Assembly (NCBI RefSeq): GCF_004570385.1
Contig: NZ_SPQL01000001.1
Span: 248,001-312,000, forward strand
From: Blastococcus sp. CT_GayMR19
GTDB taxonomy: Bacteria > Actinomycetota > Actinomycetes > Mycobacteriales > Geodermatophilaceae
DNA length: 64,000 bases
Reading direction: 5' to 3'
The notes below the pieces were generated by a model. That model saw only the letters and a program-made list of their open reading frames with translations, was not told where the DNA came from and searched no databases. Positions 3,544-47,875 of this stretch are shown here, one piece after another. The translations under genes were made by a program, and so were the position numbers. Every line of letters begins with the position of its first letter. Within the stretch, counting starts at the first letter, position 1.

Positions 3544-3612
3544 GTGCCCGGCCAACCGACGGGGACGTCGCCAGGGAGTCGCGCCGGGCCGGCCGGCCGT
3601 AGCGTTCCCCGG

Positions 3613-4692
3613 GTGACGGCCGAGCGGTCGGACGGCATTCCGGATCAGCGCACGCCACAGGCCGACGTTGCGGCGCTGATCCCGATGGTGCGCCGGATCG
3701 TCGCCGCACGGGTGCAGGACGGCCCGACCGCCGACGACCTCGTGCAGGAGACGCTCGTCCGGGTCCTCGCCGCCGCCCCGCGCGTGGAGCCCGGGATGCT
3801 GGAGTCGTACGCGATCGTCACGGCGCGGAACGTCGTCGCGTCGCTGTGGCGGGAGCGCGACCGGCACCGGCGCAACCAGCACCGCGTCGTCGACCTGCTG
3901 CCGGAGCAGACCCATGACGACGGCCTGGTGGCGCAGGAGGAGCAGAACGCAGTCGTGCAGGCCCTGGCCCGCCTCTCGGAGCGGGAACGCGACACCCTCC
4001 TCGCCCACGAGGTCTCCGGTCAGGACACCCGCTCGCTCGCCGGCGAGATCGGCTCCACCGCGGGCGCCGTCGCCGCGCAGCTGAACCGCACCCGCGCGCG
4101 ACTGCGGGTCGAGTACCTGCTGGCCCTCGACCAGGCGGAGCCGCCCACCGAGCGGTGTCGCCCGGTGCTGCTCGCCCTCTCCAGCGGGGACCGGCGCCGG
4201 CAGCGAGAGGTCGACGCCGCCCGCCACCTGCTCGAGTGCGACCTCTGCGCCCGGCTCAGCGAGCCGCTCATGGAACGCGGCCAGGCCCGCGACGACGAGA
4301 TCCGCATCCCCATCCACGTCGACGCCGACATCGTCGCGGCCCGTCAGGCCGCGCGCGAGCTCGCGTCGCGGCTGGGGTTCTCCAAGACCGACCTGACCCT
4401 GATCGCCACGGCGGTGTCCGAGGTGGCGCGCAACATCGTGCGCTTCGCCGGTCTGGGCGAGATCGTCGTCGAACTGCTCGACCAGCCGCGCCGGGGCGTG
4501 CGGGTCGTGGCGATGGACACCGGACCGGGCATCGCCGATGTGGAGCAGGCGCTCGCCGATGGATACAGCACGTACCAGGGCCTGGGGCTGGGACTACCCG
4601 GAGCTCGCCGTTTGATGGACGAGTTCGCCATCATGACCGAGATCGGTCGCGGCACGACCGTGACCATGACGAAATGGCGGGAAGAGCGATGA
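3613..4692 (+). CDS. ECF sigma factor - zinc motif - RsbT-type kinase fusion
   Basis: 359-aa protein starting at GTG 3613. Residues 20-90 are sigma region 2 (TADDLVQETLVRVL) and 115-170 are region 4 (LSERERDTLLAHE, then the HTH). Residues 181-215 contain Cys182 and H205-X3-C209-X2-C212, the HX3CX2C pattern of zinc-binding anti-sigma domains. Residues 233-359 are a GHKL ATPase with an N-box at about 266-280 (SEVARNIVRFAG), a G1 box DTGPGI and a G2 box GLGLGLPGARRLMDEF. These match RsbT (stressosome switch kinase) rather than RsbW. One polypeptide thus joins promoter recognition, a possible redox/zinc sensor and the kinase that normally phosphorylates RsbR/RsbS. The next gene overlaps by ATGA, and RsbR-, RsbS- and RsbU(N)-like genes follow. 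Expected role (inference): the kinase domain docks on the stressosome and its release frees the sigma part. No separate anti-sigma gene is present. Confidence 0.88.
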   Translation: MTAERSDGIPDQRTPQADVAALIPMVRRIVAARVQDGPTADDLVQETLVRVLAAAPRVEPGMLESYAIVTARNVVASLWRERDRHRRNQHRVVDLLPEQTHDDGLVAQEEQNAVVQALARLSERERDTLLAHEVSGQDTRSLAGEIGSTAGAVAAQLNRTRARLRVEYLLALDQAEPPTERCRPVLLALSSGDRRRQREVDAARHLLECDLCARLSEPLMERGQARDDEIRIPIHVDADIVAARQAARELASRLGFSKTDLTLIATAVSEVARNIVRFAGLGEIVVELLDQPRRGVRVVAMDTGPGIADVEQALADGYSTYQGLGLGLPGARRLMDEFAIMTEIGRGTTVTMTKWREER

Positions 4693-5594
4693 CTCGGAGC
4701 ACGGACGCGAACATCACCTCCGCGGACGTCGGGGCGATGCGCCGCGCGGACGAGGACGAGCTCCTCCCCCAGCTCGTGGCCCATCTGCGCGAGCACCGGA
4801 CGACGCTGCGCCAGGACTGGGCGAGTCGCATCCAGGAGTCCGGCCTCCTCCTCGCCATGACGTCTCAGGAGATGGCCGCGGAGACCACCTCGGTCTACGA
4901 CAACTACGTCGAGGTCCTCGAGACCGGGAGCGTGGAGGCCCTGCAGCGGTACGCGCGCGACCTGTCGGAGCGGATCATCCCGCGCGGGGTGGAGACCCAC
5001 GAGGTCGTCGGGATCGTGCTGCTCCTGCGCGACGTCCTCGCGCGTTTCCTGTTCGACAAGTACCAGCGTGACTTCGGGCTGCTCAACCGCGTGCTCGACG
5101 CCTACGAGCCGGCCGCCAACCGCATCGCCAACACCGTCGCGGTCAGCTTCGTCGAGGAGCGCGAGCGGGTCATCCGGCAGCAGCAGGACTCCATCCGCGA
5201 GCTCTCCACGCCGGTGCTGCCCGTCCGCGAGCGGCTGCTCATCCTCCCGATCATCGGCGTCCTGGACAGCGAGCGGGCCCGCCAGCTCACCGAGCAGCTG
5301 CTCACCGGCATCCGGACCCACCGGGCGAAGGTCGTCGTCATCGACATCACCGGTGTGCCCGACGTCGACGAGGCCGTGGCCAACCACCTGGTGCAGACCG
5401 TCGACGCCAGCCGCCTCATGGGCGCCAGCGTGATCATCACGGGGCTGTCGCCGCTCATCGCCCAGACACTCGTGACGATCGGGGTCGACCTGAGCAAGAT
5501 GGACACCATCGGCGACCTCCAGGGCGGTCTGGAGGAGGCCGAGCGCCTGCTCGGCTACACCGTCGGCCGGGAAAGCAGCCCCGCCAGCCCATGA
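4689..5594 (+). CDS. RsbR-type stressosome protein (N-terminal sensor plus STAS)
   Basis: 301-aa protein whose ATG overlaps the preceding TGA. Residues about 20-165 are an all-helical RsbR-type N-terminal sensor domain (LREHRTTLRQDWASRI ... YARDLSERIIPRGVETHEV). A linker helix and RELSTPVLPV lead into the STAS domain at about 175-290. Two threonines sit where RsbR is phosphorylated by RsbT: T221 in DITGVPDVD and T251 in IITGLSP. It should form the stressosome scaffold with the RsbS-like protein encoded next and be a substrate of the RsbT domain of the upstream fusion. No haem, PAS or LOV ligand motif is visible in the sensor domain, so its signal is unknown. Confidence 0.9.
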   Translation: MTRSTDANITSADVGAMRRADEDELLPQLVAHLREHRTTLRQDWASRIQESGLLLAMTSQEMAAETTSVYDNYVEVLETGSVEALQRYARDLSERIIPRGVETHEVVGIVLLLRDVLARFLFDKYQRDFGLLNRVLDAYEPAANRIANTVAVSFVEERERVIRQQQDSIRELSTPVLPVRERLLILPIIGVLDSERARQLTEQLLTGIRTHRAKVVVIDITGVPDVDEAVANHLVQTVDASRLMGASVIITGLSPLIAQTLVTIGVDLSKMDTIGDLQGGLEEAERLLGYTVGRESSPASP

Positions 5595-6013
5595 CCACCG
5601 GCCCGAAGCTGGTCTCGATCCTGCGGCAGGGCTCCTACCTGATCGCATCGATCCACACCGCCCTGGACGACACCCAGATGGTGCGGTTCCAGGAGGACCT
5701 GGTCGAGCAGATCGGCCGGTACCGGTCCCGCGGCGTGATCATCGACGTCGCGGCCCTCGACGTCCTGGACTCGTTCGGCGCGCGCACGCTGCGCACCATC
5801 GCCGAGATGGCCCGGCTGCGCGGGGCGGTGACGGTCATCGTCGGGATCCAGCCGGACGTCGCGTTCGCCATGGTGTCACTCGGCATGGCCACCGGCAGCG
5901 TCGTCACGCTGCTCGACCTCGAGGAGGGGCTGGCGTTCCTCGACAGCCGGACGCAGCGGAACGCGACGTCGGGCCGGCCGGCACTGCGGACGCTGTCCCG
6001 AGGGGCCCCGTGA
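5591..6013 (+). CDS. RsbS-type single STAS-domain protein
   Basis: 140-aa protein starting at an ATG that overlaps the RsbR-like stop. It is a single STAS domain: VSILRQGSYLIASIHTALDD, then VIIDVAALDVLDSFGART with Ser61 at the RsbS phosphoacceptor position, then VGIQPDVAFAMVSLG. In Bacillus, RsbS is the minimal stressosome core protein that sequesters RsbT until phosphorylated. The residues needed for that are present here. The C-terminal 20 residues (SRTQRNATSGRPALR) are basic and unlike RsbS. The gene is translationally coupled to both neighbours. Confidence 0.9.
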   Translation: MTTGPKLVSILRQGSYLIASIHTALDDTQMVRFQEDLVEQIGRYRSRGVIIDVAALDVLDSFGARTLRTIAEMARLRGAVTVIVGIQPDVAFAMVSLGMATGSVVTLLDLEEGLAFLDSRTQRNATSGRPALRTLSRGAP

Positions 6014-6408
6014 TGGACGAGCTGGACGTCCTCACCAAGGACTACCGGGTCGCGTTCCTCCACTACCTGCCGCGCCGGGAGGAGGCCGCACTCCATCGCG
6101 CGTACGAGCTGGGCCGTTCTGCCGTGGCCGAGGGGCTCAGCATCCTGGAGCTGGCCCGGGTCCATCACGAGATCTTCCTCGAGGTCCTCCGGGAGACGCC
6201 CCCCGCGGAGCTGCCCGAGGTCGCGACGGCCGCCTCCGAGTTCCTCCTGGAGGTGCTGGCGACCTTCGACATGGCCCAGCGGGCCTTCCTCGAGGGACAT
6301 GCGGCCGCCCGGGACGACCAGGGCCCCCGACCGGGGAGCGGGATCAGGGCTCCCCGGCCGGAGGCTCGGGACGGCGCAGCTCGGGGTTCTGCGCCGGGTC
6401 TCGCTTAG
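6010..6408 (+). CDS. RsbU N-terminal (RsbT-binding) domain protein without phosphatase
   Basis: 132-aa helical protein. The start is GTG 6010 (GTGA overlap with the previous stop) or the next codon, ATG 6013. Residues 5-95 (LTKDYRVAFLHYLPRREEA ... GLSILELARVHHEIFLEVL ... FDMAQRAFLEG) match the pattern of the RsbU N-terminal domain, which binds RsbT. A PP2C phosphatase domain, which RsbU normally carries, is absent, and the last 30 residues are disordered and Arg/Pro-rich. It therefore probably acts as a docking partner or competitor for the fused kinase rather than as an enzyme. Its stop overlaps the stop of the convergent gene on the other strand. Confidence 0.78.
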   Translation: MMDELDVLTKDYRVAFLHYLPRREEAALHRAYELGRSAVAEGLSILELARVHHEIFLEVLRETPPAELPEVATAASEFLLEVLATFDMAQRAFLEGHAAARDDQGPRPGSGIRAPRPEARDGAARGSAPGLA

Positions 6409-42597: not shown

Positions 42598-42742
42598 CGC
42601 TCACCATGGTGCCATCGCCGTCCGACATTCCTGCTCGGTGCCGGCAAGCCGTCATGCAATCGCAAAGCCGTTCACCTGCTGATCGCAATGTCCGGCAGCC
42701 AGGGTCGAGTCGTCCCGTCCCGAAGCAGCGAAGGAGATGCCG

Positions 42743-43096
42743 ATGACAGCCGCCGCCGTCCGTGCCGCCGCCCACACCCGGCTCGACACCGAGCGCGACC
42801 AGGTGACGATCCAGCTCAGCGACGAACTCCTTGCCGACGGGCTGGCTGACGTCCGTTGGTTGATGCACGACGCCCTGCTCGCCGGCGCCCGGCAGCTGGT
42901 CGTGGATGTCAGCGCTGTGCAGCACCTGGCCAGCCCCGCCGTCGCCAGCTTCCTGTCCGCGCACCGGACCTGCCGCGCCCGGGGCGGCGCCGTCGTCCTG
43001 CGCGGCGCGAACCGCCGCATCCTCGACCTGCTGCATCGCACCGGCCTGTGGCGGGTGCTGGAGCTCGAGTCCGCCACCGGCCGGCGGGCGGCGTGA
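42743..43096 (+). CDS. STAS-domain protein
   Basis: 117 aa. ATG 42743 was chosen because GGAG lies 6 nt before it; an ATG at 42737 is also in frame. The STAS core reads DQVTIQLSDELLADGLADVR, ARQLVVDVSAVQHLASPAVA and LRGANRRILDLLHRTGLWRV. A Ser lies in LASPAVA where the phosphoacceptor is expected. It is distinct from the SGHLTVQGADLLRGT group but is translationally coupled (TGATG) to a member of it. Divergent from the OmpR-type regulator. Confidence 0.82.
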   Translation: MTAAAVRAAAHTRLDTERDQVTIQLSDELLADGLADVRWLMHDALLAGARQLVVDVSAVQHLASPAVASFLSAHRTCRARGGAVVLRGANRRILDLLHRTGLWRVLELESATGRRAA

Positions 43097-43353
43097 TGGC
43101 CACGCTCACCGAGACCGTCAACGTGCGGACCGGACACATCCGGGCCAGCGGTCATCTGACGTCGCAGGGTGCCGACCTCCTCCGCGGCACGGCAGAGTCG
43201 CTGCACGGCAGCGGTCACGCGCGCGTCGTCCTCGACCTTCAAGACGTCCAACACGCGGACGATTCGGGCCTGAACATCCTCCGTGGCCTGGGCGAGGAGT
43301 TCGCGGCGCGGGGCGGCGAGCTCGTTGTCCGGCACTGCCCGGAAACGGCCTGA
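43096..43353 (+). CDS. STAS-domain anti-sigma factor antagonist
   Basis: 85-aa protein whose ATG overlaps the previous stop. TGHIRASGHLTSQGADLLRG, then VVLDLQDVQHADDSGLNILR with Ser in DDSG as the phosphoacceptor, then RGGELVVRHCPET. Close relative of the STAS proteins at 34292 and 46917. Together with the upstream STAS protein it makes a two-STAS unit without kinase or phosphatase, so its partner must be encoded elsewhere. Confidence 0.83.
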   Translation: MATLTETVNVRTGHIRASGHLTSQGADLLRGTAESLHGSGHARVVLDLQDVQHADDSGLNILRGLGEEFAARGGELVVRHCPETA

Positions 43354-46803: not shown

Positions 46804-46920
46804 GGAAGTTGACGACGCCATGACGACTCGGCCAAGCCCCGGCTGCAGCCGCTGGGAGGGTGGGGTCACCGAGCGCCGACGGTGGCCGGACTACGCACCA
46901 TGAACCGGAGGACCACGTGA
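46804..46920 (+). repeat. Diverged leader copy of a STAS gene (copy B)
   Basis: Similar to 32414-32535: shares the gaagttga start and CATGAACCGGAGGACCACGTG-type end with RBS GGAGG. Here it leads directly into the broken STAS gene, so it marks the natural 5' region of that gene. Confidence 0.55.
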
Positions 46921-47215
46921 CCACCCACCCGCCGCGCGACCCGCGACGCCACGTCCATGGCCCGAGGTCGTCGATCCGCGCACCGGCACCGTGCGAGTCA
47001 GCGGTCACATCACGGTGCAGGGGGCCGACCTCCTGCGAGGCACGGTGGAGAGCCTTCGCGCAGAGCGGACACGTCTCCGTACTCCTCGATCTGCAGGACG
47101 TGCGGGCCGCCGACGATGCCGGCCTGCAGGTGCTGCGCGCCGTCCGCAGAGACTTCGCCGCGACCGGCGGAGAGCTCGTGGTCCGGCACCTGCCGGAGAA
47201 GGCCAGTCGCCTCAC
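46917..47215 (+). pseudogene. Frameshifted STAS anti-sigma antagonist
   Basis: GTG 46917 with GGAGG 8 nt upstream begins TTHPPRDPRRHVHG. After a frame change come GTVRVSGHITVQGADLLRGT and VESLRA; after a second change come GHVSVLLDLQDVRAADDAGL, QVLRAVRRDFAATGGELVVR and HLPEKA. All STAS blocks seen in the intact relatives at 34292 and 43096 are present but in three pieces. ADDAG has Ala or Asp where the other copies carry a phosphoacceptor Ser. Confidence 0.82.
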
Positions 47216-47875
47216 TGATCGCGGTCCGCGCCTCGGCGCTCCGGCAGGCAGGCGACCCCGGGGTGATCACGGCATCTTCGCCCCAGCGCCGGCAGCGGGT
47301 TGTGGCTCGCAGCGGCGACTGGGCGTGCGCCGTCGCGGTTGCCGATGGAACTGACCGGTCAGGTCCTGCGTCGTCGAGCACGCGGGGCAACGCCGGCCAG
47401 ACCGACGACCAGGCGAACCCCGTCCGAGCCGCAGCAGGTGGGTGCTCGCACGTGGTGCCGACTCGCACGTGGTGCCGGTTGTTGCGCACGCGGTCACGAG
47501 GAGGTCGCCCGGCGGCGCTGCGTGCGTGTTCGAGTCGGCGTCGGCACCGGGGACCTTCATGACCCAGGAGCAGCGGCGGAGGGCAGGCCGATCTGGACGC
47601 CCGTCTGCAGACCAACCAGGTGCAGCAGGCCCTGAGCGGCGCCGGGGACGCACGGGGGAGACGCCCGGCACCCCCTCTGATCGCTGTCGGCTGAGGGCGG
47701 TTCGCTCTGGACGCCGGCCGTGTCAACGGTCCGGTCCGCGATCAGCGGTGCGCCACCCCTCCGCTGAGAAGCCTCGCCCCTGAGACCCCGTCGGGGTGCA
47801 ATCGGCCAGGCTATGTCGGCATCAGCCCGCACCGCCCCCTGCTATCGACAGATGCAGCTCCAGCTGGGAGAGCCG
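47216..47875. other. Gene-poor region
   Basis: About 660 bp without a supported gene on either strand. Apart from the 16-bp tandem repeat at 47445-47477, no structure stands out. The haloacid dehalogenase promoter should be at the right end. Confidence 0.4.
47445..47477. repeat. Tandem 16-bp repeat
   Basis: CTCGCACGTGGTGCCG occurs twice, at 47445-47460 and 47462-47477, separated by one A. Each contains the palindrome CACGTG. Possible protein-binding site; no gene start is within 300 bp. Confidence 0.5.

Follow-up and report, generated by a model that had tools for sequence, protein, structure and literature searches.

We analysed a 64,000-nt window of the genome of Blastococcus sp. CT_GayMR19 (NZ_SPQL01000001.1, positions 248,001 to 312,000 of the forward strand), and all coordinates below are positions within this window. 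A gene for a fusion protein is followed by RsbR-, RsbS- and RsbU_N-like genes, with these features:

3600..3605, + strand: TAGCGT, a TANNNT element seven bases upstream of the start codon, likely -10
3613..4692, + strand: fusion gene, 359 aa, with sigma regions 2 and 4, a ZAS-type zinc domain and an RsbT kinase
3670..3864, + strand: Sigma70 region 2, residues 20-84 (Pfam)
3946..4104, + strand: Sigma70 region 4, residues 112-164 (Pfam)
4156..4248, + strand: ZAS-type motif C182-x22-H205-x3-C209-x2-C212 (ligand conservation; hhalign)
4294..4689, + strand: RsbT-type kinase, residues 228-359
4689..5594, + strand: RsbR-like protein, 301 aa (RsbRD_N, STAS)
5370..5372, + strand: E228 codon, in the place of Bacillus RsbR T171 and Listeria T175
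5466..5468, + strand: T260 codon, in the place of Bacillus T205 and Listeria T209
5591..6013, + strand: RsbS-like protein, 140 aa (STAS)
5771..5773, + strand: S61 codon, in the place of the RsbS phospho-serine
6010..6408, + strand: RsbU_N-only protein, 131-132 aa, start GTG 6010 or ATG 6013, without a phosphatase domain

The frame at 3613-4692 contains no internal stop, and its product matched the Pfam models Sigma70_r2 (residues 20-84, E 5.2e-12), Sigma70_r4_2 (residues 112-164, E 2.3e-6) and HATPase_c_2 (residues 239-354, E 8.6e-14). The sigma part also matched the ECF model TIGR02937 with 66.7 bits against a cut-off of 42.9, and the Pfam matches to sigma regions 2 and 4 were retained in 9/9 fusions. 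A sigma factor fused to an RsbT kinase within an RsbR/RsbS operon is thereby confirmed. An earlier sequence-only reading had described a single 359-aa protein with both sigma regions, a zinc motif and a complete RsbT-type kinase; this description holds, with C182 added as a ligand that it had overlooked, and of the domain models that it had named, those for the sigma regions and the kinase gave matches while zf-HC2 was not called. Neither a stop nor a frameshift separates the sigma and kinase parts. The full-length fusion recurs in 29 of the 112 genomes of the family and was also found elsewhere in the order, class and phylum, and its occurrence in so many genomes rules out chance or a frameshift as its source. 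On plasmids the fusion was not found, as none of the 105 plasmid records matched covers 80% of the query.

The RsbR-, RsbS- and RsbU(N)-like genes with overlapping starts, as first read, were confirmed by Pfam and by gene coordinates, adjacent genes overlapping by a few bases. The RsbR-like protein matched STAS (E 7.6e-14) and RsbRD_N with 24.3 bits, which is exactly the cut-off of that model; the RsbS-like protein matched STAS (E 7.2e-12), and the last protein matched RsbU_N (E 3.3e-15). Solved stressosome proteins were matched by the RsbR-like (E 5.7e-36) and RsbS-like (E 1.3e-23) proteins, and the match of the RsbU_N protein to solved Bacillus RsbU was weak (E 0.0048). Alignment suggests that the RsbU_N gene may begin at ATG 6013 rather than at GTG 6010. 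No SpoIIE/PP2C domain was found after RsbU_N in the window (by Pfam) or in the loci L218 and L219, and in the other 15 complete fusion operons the RsbU_N frame stops about 20 residues or less past the matched part. A search of genome neighbourhoods for the fusion beside RsbR/RsbS, which the sequence-only reading had proposed, returned the same four-gene operon intact in all 18 complete loci examined, which are spread over several families of actinobacteria and a second class, with an RsbU_N free of any additional domain next to the fusion each time.

Of 13 fusion starts scanned, 10 have a TANNNT element at this distance, versus 0 of 169 background windows. TAGCGT is thus likely the -10 of a leaderless, housekeeping-type promoter, which fits post-translational control. 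An ECF-type autoregulatory promoter was unsupported, a GGAA[CT]-type pattern occurring in 5 of 17 scanned loci at no common position. A conserved neighbour as a dedicated target was likewise unsupported: no flanking frame was shared by more than 6 of 16 loci, and many of the shared ones were antisense to real genes.

The ATP-binding residues of the fused kinase were invariant in 9/9 fusions (E270, R273 and N274; D302-x-G304-P-G-I307; G323LGLGLPG330), in the N-box, G1 and G2 motifs. Compared with the kinases of 12 RsbR-RsbS-RsbT modules, the domain shows 47-63% identity. In its own genome, the whole fusion as query gave a single match at 1e-8, and the RsbT domain, searched with an E limit of 1 against the frames of ten stretches around other HATPase matches (the genome has 32 HATPase matches in total), gave none. 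The kinase might still act as RsbW does, as an anti-sigma factor to the sigma factor of its own chain, with RsbR and RsbS as anti-anti-sigma factors, since the HATPase family is common to RsbW and SpoIIAB and the NCBIfam SpoIIAB model matched with E 1e-12, though far under its cut-off. However, the domain is closer to the RsbT of RST operons than to the compared HATPases of its own genome and clusters with the RsbT of other fusions in RST-module trees, and an RsbW-like identity was therefore rejected. The sigma factor here is also ECF-type, whereas the known RsbW partners are SigB/F-type. Such a one-chain partner switch is improbable.

Elsewhere in the genome, contig 42 carries a SigB/F/G-type sigma gene, close to which lie HATPase, SpoIIE and STAS genes. 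RsbV, RsbW and a phosphatase, reported as missing, are thus missing from the operon but not from the genome, where RsbV-, RsbW- and SpoIIE-type genes lie elsewhere. These genes are partners of the kind that the sequence-only reading thought could account for the signalling instead, but none has RsbU_N. No second RsbU_N was found in the genome, and no phosphatase of the genome carries this domain. Because no other was found, the RsbU_N of the operon is the only recognisable candidate docking partner for RsbT, in line with the role first suggested for this lone, PP2C-less domain. Cross-talk with the SigB/F/G-type system is possible. The fusion might even feed this general system in trans, its ECF part being a docking or silent domain; the genes on contig 42 would suit such a role, but the lack of RsbU_N in the phosphatases of the genome and the persistence of sigma regions 2 and 4 across the nine fusions make it very improbable.

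The RsbS phosphosite had been placed correctly at S61, which aligns with S59 in Bacillus and is a serine in 16/16 aligned fusion operons. T221 and T251, proposed as the RsbR phosphosites, were wrong; the equivalents of Bacillus T171 and T205 are E228 and T260. None of the 18 complete fusion operons has Ser/Thr at the RsbR priming site, versus 22 of 24 other RsbRs (L223, the same record as L095, counted once; the third RsbR of L230, outside the pattern, unscored). Glu occupies this position in 13 of the 18 operons, and Val, Ala or His in the other 5. The link between the fusion and loss of the priming site was perfect in the first 34 RsbRs and was broken by two of six further unfused RsbRs, those of L224 (Lys) and L231 (Glu), which weakens it. 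Because 2 of the 24 unfused RsbRs lack Ser/Thr there, a priming Thr is not a strict stressosome requirement. In the best PDB match, 9o4h, presumably the Listeria T175E variant, a Glu stands at the position of E228. Reportedly, T175E locks a pre-activated state (PMC12154155). E228 may thus be a natural phosphomimic, though the mimic is not universal among the fusions because 5/18 operons have Val, Ala or His.

The four zinc ligands (C182, H205, C209 and C212) were unchanged in 9/9 fusions, and a Cys with H-x3-C-x2-C is the ligand pattern of a ZAS anti-sigma domain. Pfam zf-HC2 was absent from 9/9 fusions scanned (E limit 5; HMMER filters drop most matches above 0.1), and the relatives L052 and L053 matched zf-HC2 at the corresponding position. 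hhalign related the fusion motif to the zf-HC2 stretch of ECF52-like relatives with a probability of 94.9 over 32 columns, from small alignments. The motif resembles a ZAS-type anti-sigma domain that kinase-less sigma-ZAS proteins also have, and because of this resemblance, release from the stressosome alone may not suffice to free the sigma factor. In the rival account nearest to the sequence-only reading, the sigma factor would be merely tethered and active once the kinase leaves RsbR/RsbS, with RsbU_N as a sink or decoy against rebinding and ZAS as a structural remnant. The retained RsbS phospho-Ser and kinase motifs and the lack of an effector domain on RsbU_N agree with it, but ligands invariant in every fusion compared are unlike a remnant, and the constant company of RsbU_N in the 18 operons also counts against it, so that we regard it as unlikely. 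ZAS could also be the main sensor, oxidation of its thiols or loss of its zinc freeing the sigma factor while the stressosome sets location or threshold only. The conserved H-x3-C-x2-C plus C182 would allow this, and in SigH/RshA-type systems a ZAS anti-sigma factor can be a redox switch (PMC8999054). However, a redox switch leaves the joint retention of a full kinase, RsbR, RsbS and RsbU_N in 18/18 complete operons unexplained, and because kinase-less relatives keep the same ligands, these need not mean redox sensing; we give it little credence.

The usual stressosome output is a multi-step relay, RsbU-RsbV-RsbW-SigB. As in Bacillus, Listeria and Mycobacterium marinum, homologues of RsbR, RsbS and RsbT occur together here, with the RsbS phospho-Ser and RsbU_N retained. 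Unlike in those systems, RsbT bears a sigma factor and a ZAS-type domain, RsbU is without its phosphatase part, the RsbR priming Thr is replaced, mostly by Glu, and the operon has no RsbV/RsbW relay. In other RST modules RsbT stands alone and RsbU_N is usually joined to an effector (SpoIIE phosphatase, histidine kinase or HD domain), whereas here RsbU_N is bare and the effector is on RsbT. Non-SigB outputs of the same core, a diguanylate cyclase in Moorella and a CheY-like gene in Vibrio (PMC4976288), are separate proteins there, in contrast to the output fused to the kinase here. ECF52 sigma factors (SCO4117) likewise have sigma regions 2 and 4 and then a zinc-finger module, and their transmembrane, proline-rich and carbohydrate-binding C-terminus (PMC5826349) is replaced here by RsbT. 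Identity between the fusion and the sigma-zinc proteins L023-L029 is only about 26-32%; we infer this set to be ECF52-like, and Pfam calls zf-HC2 in two of its members. Kinase-less sigma-ZAS proteins of Actinomycetota share the sigma-ZAS module (L220, 61% identical over it); those read further have a hydrophobic membrane-like stretch and more, judged by eye, where the fusion has its kinase. Each half thus has separate relatives, sigma-zinc proteins and the stand-alone RsbT of RsbR-RsbS-RsbT modules.

Among the genomes searched, RsbU_N was found in 11 of 12 with the fusion and 5 of 5 with solo RsbT, versus 0 of 17 that belong to the same family but lack the fusion. FastTree gave a single fusion clade in four trees (support 1.0 for RsbR, 0.32 for RsbS, 0.93 for RsbT and 0.998 joined). 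IQ-TREE runs, which covered RsbR, RsbS and the joined set, recovered it in the joined (83) and RsbS (support 9) trees and not in RsbR; the sigma-ZAS clade had a support of 0.67. A single origin of the fusion is suggested with weakened confidence. The sequences show directly the architecture, the operon, the conservation, which phosphosites were kept or lost, and the co-occurrence.

Assembly, phosphorylation, release, docking, sigma activation and the direction of regulation we infer from these sequences, and we lean, modestly, towards a one-step stressosome in which release or re-docking of the kinase gates a sigma factor that bears its own anti-sigma domain. RsbR and RsbS would build the usual STAS scaffold, holding the fusion by its RsbT domain and so keeping the sigma factor off RNA polymerase; the internal ZAS domain would be a second, built-in brake, and RsbR priming would be hard-wired as Glu in most members. 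Upon stress, the RsbT domain would phosphorylate RsbS S61, releasing the fusion, and the freed domain would dock on the lone RsbU_N protein. In related systems, RsbT docking is thought to turn on the effector fused to RsbU_N. Here docking, or release itself, would open the sigma-ZAS part of the fusion itself, and the sigma factor could then join RNA polymerase. The one-protein shortcut first proposed thus keeps its RsbT-type fusion, operon and phosphatase loss, while its RsbR phosphosites and the role of its zinc motif need revision. More tentatively, and with the balance somewhat against it, the output arm may have been rebuilt as a whole: the effector shifted from RsbU_N to the kinase, RsbT docking on bare RsbU_N opening an internal anti-sigma clamp, priming replaced by permanent negative charge in most members, and one protein serving as kinase, anti-sigma and sigma factor, dispensing with the RsbV-RsbW relay.

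If the one-step stressosome is true, the path from stressosome to transcription would be shorter than the RsbU-RsbV-RsbW-SigB relay, and its output could be read with four purified proteins and RNA polymerase. The natural priming-site Glu would be a living phosphomimic, one that the authors of PMC12154155 could not make in Listeria. The fusion would also be a soluble, kinase-controlled case of the fused sigma-ZAS design, and, with the effector apparently swapped from RsbU_N to RsbT, one could test whether the RsbT-RsbU_N contact is a general output switch. Some soil actinobacteria appear to link a large stress-sensing complex straight to a sigma factor, which is fused to the kinase of that complex.

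The frame at 3613-4692 is stop-free and encodes 359 amino acids, in which Pfam found sigma region 2, sigma region 4 and HATPase_c_2, and the product scored over the model cut-off of TIGR02937 (ECF sigma). These matches bear out the sequence-only reading that a sigma factor and an RsbT-like kinase are joined in one protein, and the sigma-zinc-RsbT architecture is near certain. The downstream frames matched, in order, RsbRD_N plus STAS, STAS, and RsbU_N, and neighboring genes of the operon share a few bases:

3613-4692: sigma-zinc-RsbT fusion
4689-5594: RsbR-like protein
5591-6013: RsbS-like protein
6010-6408: RsbU_N-only protein

The neighborhood comparison proposed with the sequence-only reading placed the fusion beside RsbR and RsbS in other genomes too: each of the 18 distinct complete fusion loci (the window, L037-L044, L088, L089, L091-L093, L199, L200, L218 and L219) holds the fusion together with RsbR, RsbS and an RsbU_N protein. 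This count leaves out L090, which duplicates the L041 record, and L198, whose contig ends after the RsbR start. Eight of the 29 full-length fusions from the family search were examined as loci, and Modestobacter caceresii may be among the other 21. RsbU_N stands alone by Pfam in the window, L218 and L219, and in the other 15 operons the frame stops about 20 residues or fewer past the matched segment.

The distribution of the fusion is patchy. A search of 60 relatives and the own genome found some match in 21 of 61 and a full-length fusion in 9 of 61. The family search matched 31 of 112 genomes (29 full length, G025, where the fusion is truncated by the contig end, and G464), including 3 of the 16 genomes of the own genus. 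The class search at 1e-20 matched 76 of 394 genomes, four at full length (own, G067, G106, G268), three by the sigma-zinc part only (G165, G122, G137) and the remainder by the RsbT part only. The phylum search at 1e-40 matched 30 of 396, again four at full length (own, G106, G711, G769), with G711 and G769 from a different class. At least six named genomes carry full-length fusions: Modestobacter caceresii, Geodermatophilus aquaeductus, two strains of Humibacillus xanthopallidus, a Nocardioidaceae MAG and a Tetrasphaera MAG. At L228 (G464, contig C1; about 4297-5378), the fusion gene is split over several frames with the rest of the operon kept, reflecting decay or sequencing error.

C182, H205, C209 and C212 were invariant in 9/9 fusions. 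The sigma regions and HATPase predicted by the sequence-only reading were recovered, but Pfam zf-HC2 was called in none of the nine. More distant relatives, L052 and L053, did match it at the equivalent position, and hhalign of the fusion motif against zf-HC2 relatives gave a probability of 94.9 over 32 columns, spanning H205-C212 but not C182, from small alignments of 9 rows and of 4 rows that included an identical pair. Twelve closer kinase-less relatives (L046, L094, L201-L203, L220-L222, L225-L227, L233) share the same motif, followed, in all nine whose next stretch was read (not L225-L227), by a hydrophobic stretch, as judged by eye. In a FastTree of 18 fusions, 12 kinase-less relatives and 3 outgroups, the fusions formed one clade (support 0.67) nested within the kinase-less family. 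For ECF52, a fused zinc finger has been proposed as a brake (PMC5826349, in excerpt). A sigma-ZAS-membrane protein likely shed its sensor part and was then joined to RsbT. One genome, G044, contains both a kinase-less sigma-ZAS gene cut by a contig end (L046, C368) and a fusion (L044, C410). In G677 (L222/L223) and G707 (L224/L225), of other classes, kinase-less sigma-ZAS and unfused RsbR-RsbS-RsbT genes lie at separate places, and these pairs resemble the two presumed parents.

TAGCGT lies seven bases upstream of the GTG start of the fusion gene. TANNNT beginning 10 to 18 bases ahead of the start was found at 10 of 13 fusion starts, compared with 0 of 169 equal-sized windows farther upstream, in a scan with hand-chosen starts, four of 17 loci omitted and the L037 start placed three bases early. 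It was absent at the starts as set in L038, L044 and L089, the last chosen inside a TACTGT. In L088 (Modestobacter caceresii), the TAGCGT-GTG region at about 5974-5990 is not in the fusion's frame, pointing to a sequencing error or another start. Because the motif looks like a leaderless, housekeeping-type promoter, the fusion is probably controlled after translation.

The closest PDB match of the window RsbR was 9o4h, and E228 of the window protein, at the place of Bacillus T171 and Listeria T175, aligned with Glu in 9o4h and Ala in 9o3z. Entry 9o4h is, by our inference, the T175E variant of Listeria described in PMC12154155; that preprint reports that T175E takes a pre-activated arrangement on assembly and that the mutant was not obtainable in the living bacterium. 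In excerpts of the Bacillus literature, RsbS phosphorylation is said to require prior T171 phosphorylation (PMC7522486), T171A weakens the response by a factor of 10 to 100 that varies with background, and stressosomes without both phosphosites can still signal (PMC3944199), so caution is needed in reading weight into the T171-type site. These counts are of related sequences rather than independent events. Across the 18 complete fusion operons, the residue at the E228 position was Glu 13 times, Val three times, and Ala and His once each, with Gly in the disrupted L228; it was Ser/Thr in 22 of 24 unfused RsbRs (18/18 plus 4/6 more, with K in L224 and E in L231); T260 (T205 equivalent) and the RsbS phospho-site Ser were each kept in 16/16 fusion operons, L218 and L219 excluded.

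The sequence-only reading called RsbV, RsbW and the phosphatase domain missing, which holds for the operon. The own genome gave 32 HATPase_c_2, 16 SpoIIE and 16 STAS matches, and contig 42 holds one SigB/F/G-type sigma over cut-off with HATPase, SpoIIE and STAS matches within about 5 kb; partner-switch parts therefore exist elsewhere, but none carries RsbU_N. The single RsbU_N of the genome lies in the fusion operon. RsbU_N was present in 11/12 fusion genomes (the exception, G067, has a cut locus), 5/5 solo-RsbT genomes and 0/17 same-family genomes without the fusion. At 42737-43350 and 46860-47351, the window also has a pair of adjoining STAS domains, encoded in overlapping frames, and near them a third frame that contains a STAS domain; a YetF-like frame lies between, and the group may be a further partner-switch cluster.

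The RsbT domain of the fusion shared 47-63% identity with the stand-alone kinases of 12 RsbR-RsbS-RsbT modules, its ATP-site residues were kept in 9/9 fusions, and the window RsbR reached up to 81% identity with RsbR of unfused modules. In unfused modules, the domains joined to RsbU_N were varied.

Table. Domains joined to RsbU_N in unfused modules (ten proteins scanned).
SpoIIE + HATPase: L047, L204, L205, L206
SpoIIE: L224
Histidine kinase (HisKA_3), beside RsbR-RsbS-RsbT: L096 6440-8380; L232 2718-4115
HD domain (HD_5), beside a module with several RsbRs: L230 (G785, contig C51) 5427-6410
PAS only: L097
GAF only: L231

The HD_5 protein may direct stressosome output to c-di-GMP breakdown, and the HisKA_3 proteins may link it to two-component signaling. 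Among other known stressosome outputs are, in Moorella, a diguanylate cyclase and, in Vibrio, a CheY-like gene (PMC4976288); mycobacteria also have RsbRST (PMC8115616). Titles and abstract openings found across open-licence PMC papers described no sigma-RsbT fusion, and "HATPase" and "stressosome" were absent from the accessible text of two ECF reviews (PMC8999054, PMC8103513); the fusion is provisionally novel, within literature that does not include the main ECF re-classification.

Given the range of domains joined to it, RsbU_N seems to be a portable domain for docking RsbT, with the effector apparently shifted onto the kinase in the fusion operons. The sigma-ZAS part may be opened by kinase release or, alternatively, by RsbU_N docking. 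As judged from sequence, the sigma factor is probably controlled directly by the stressosome.
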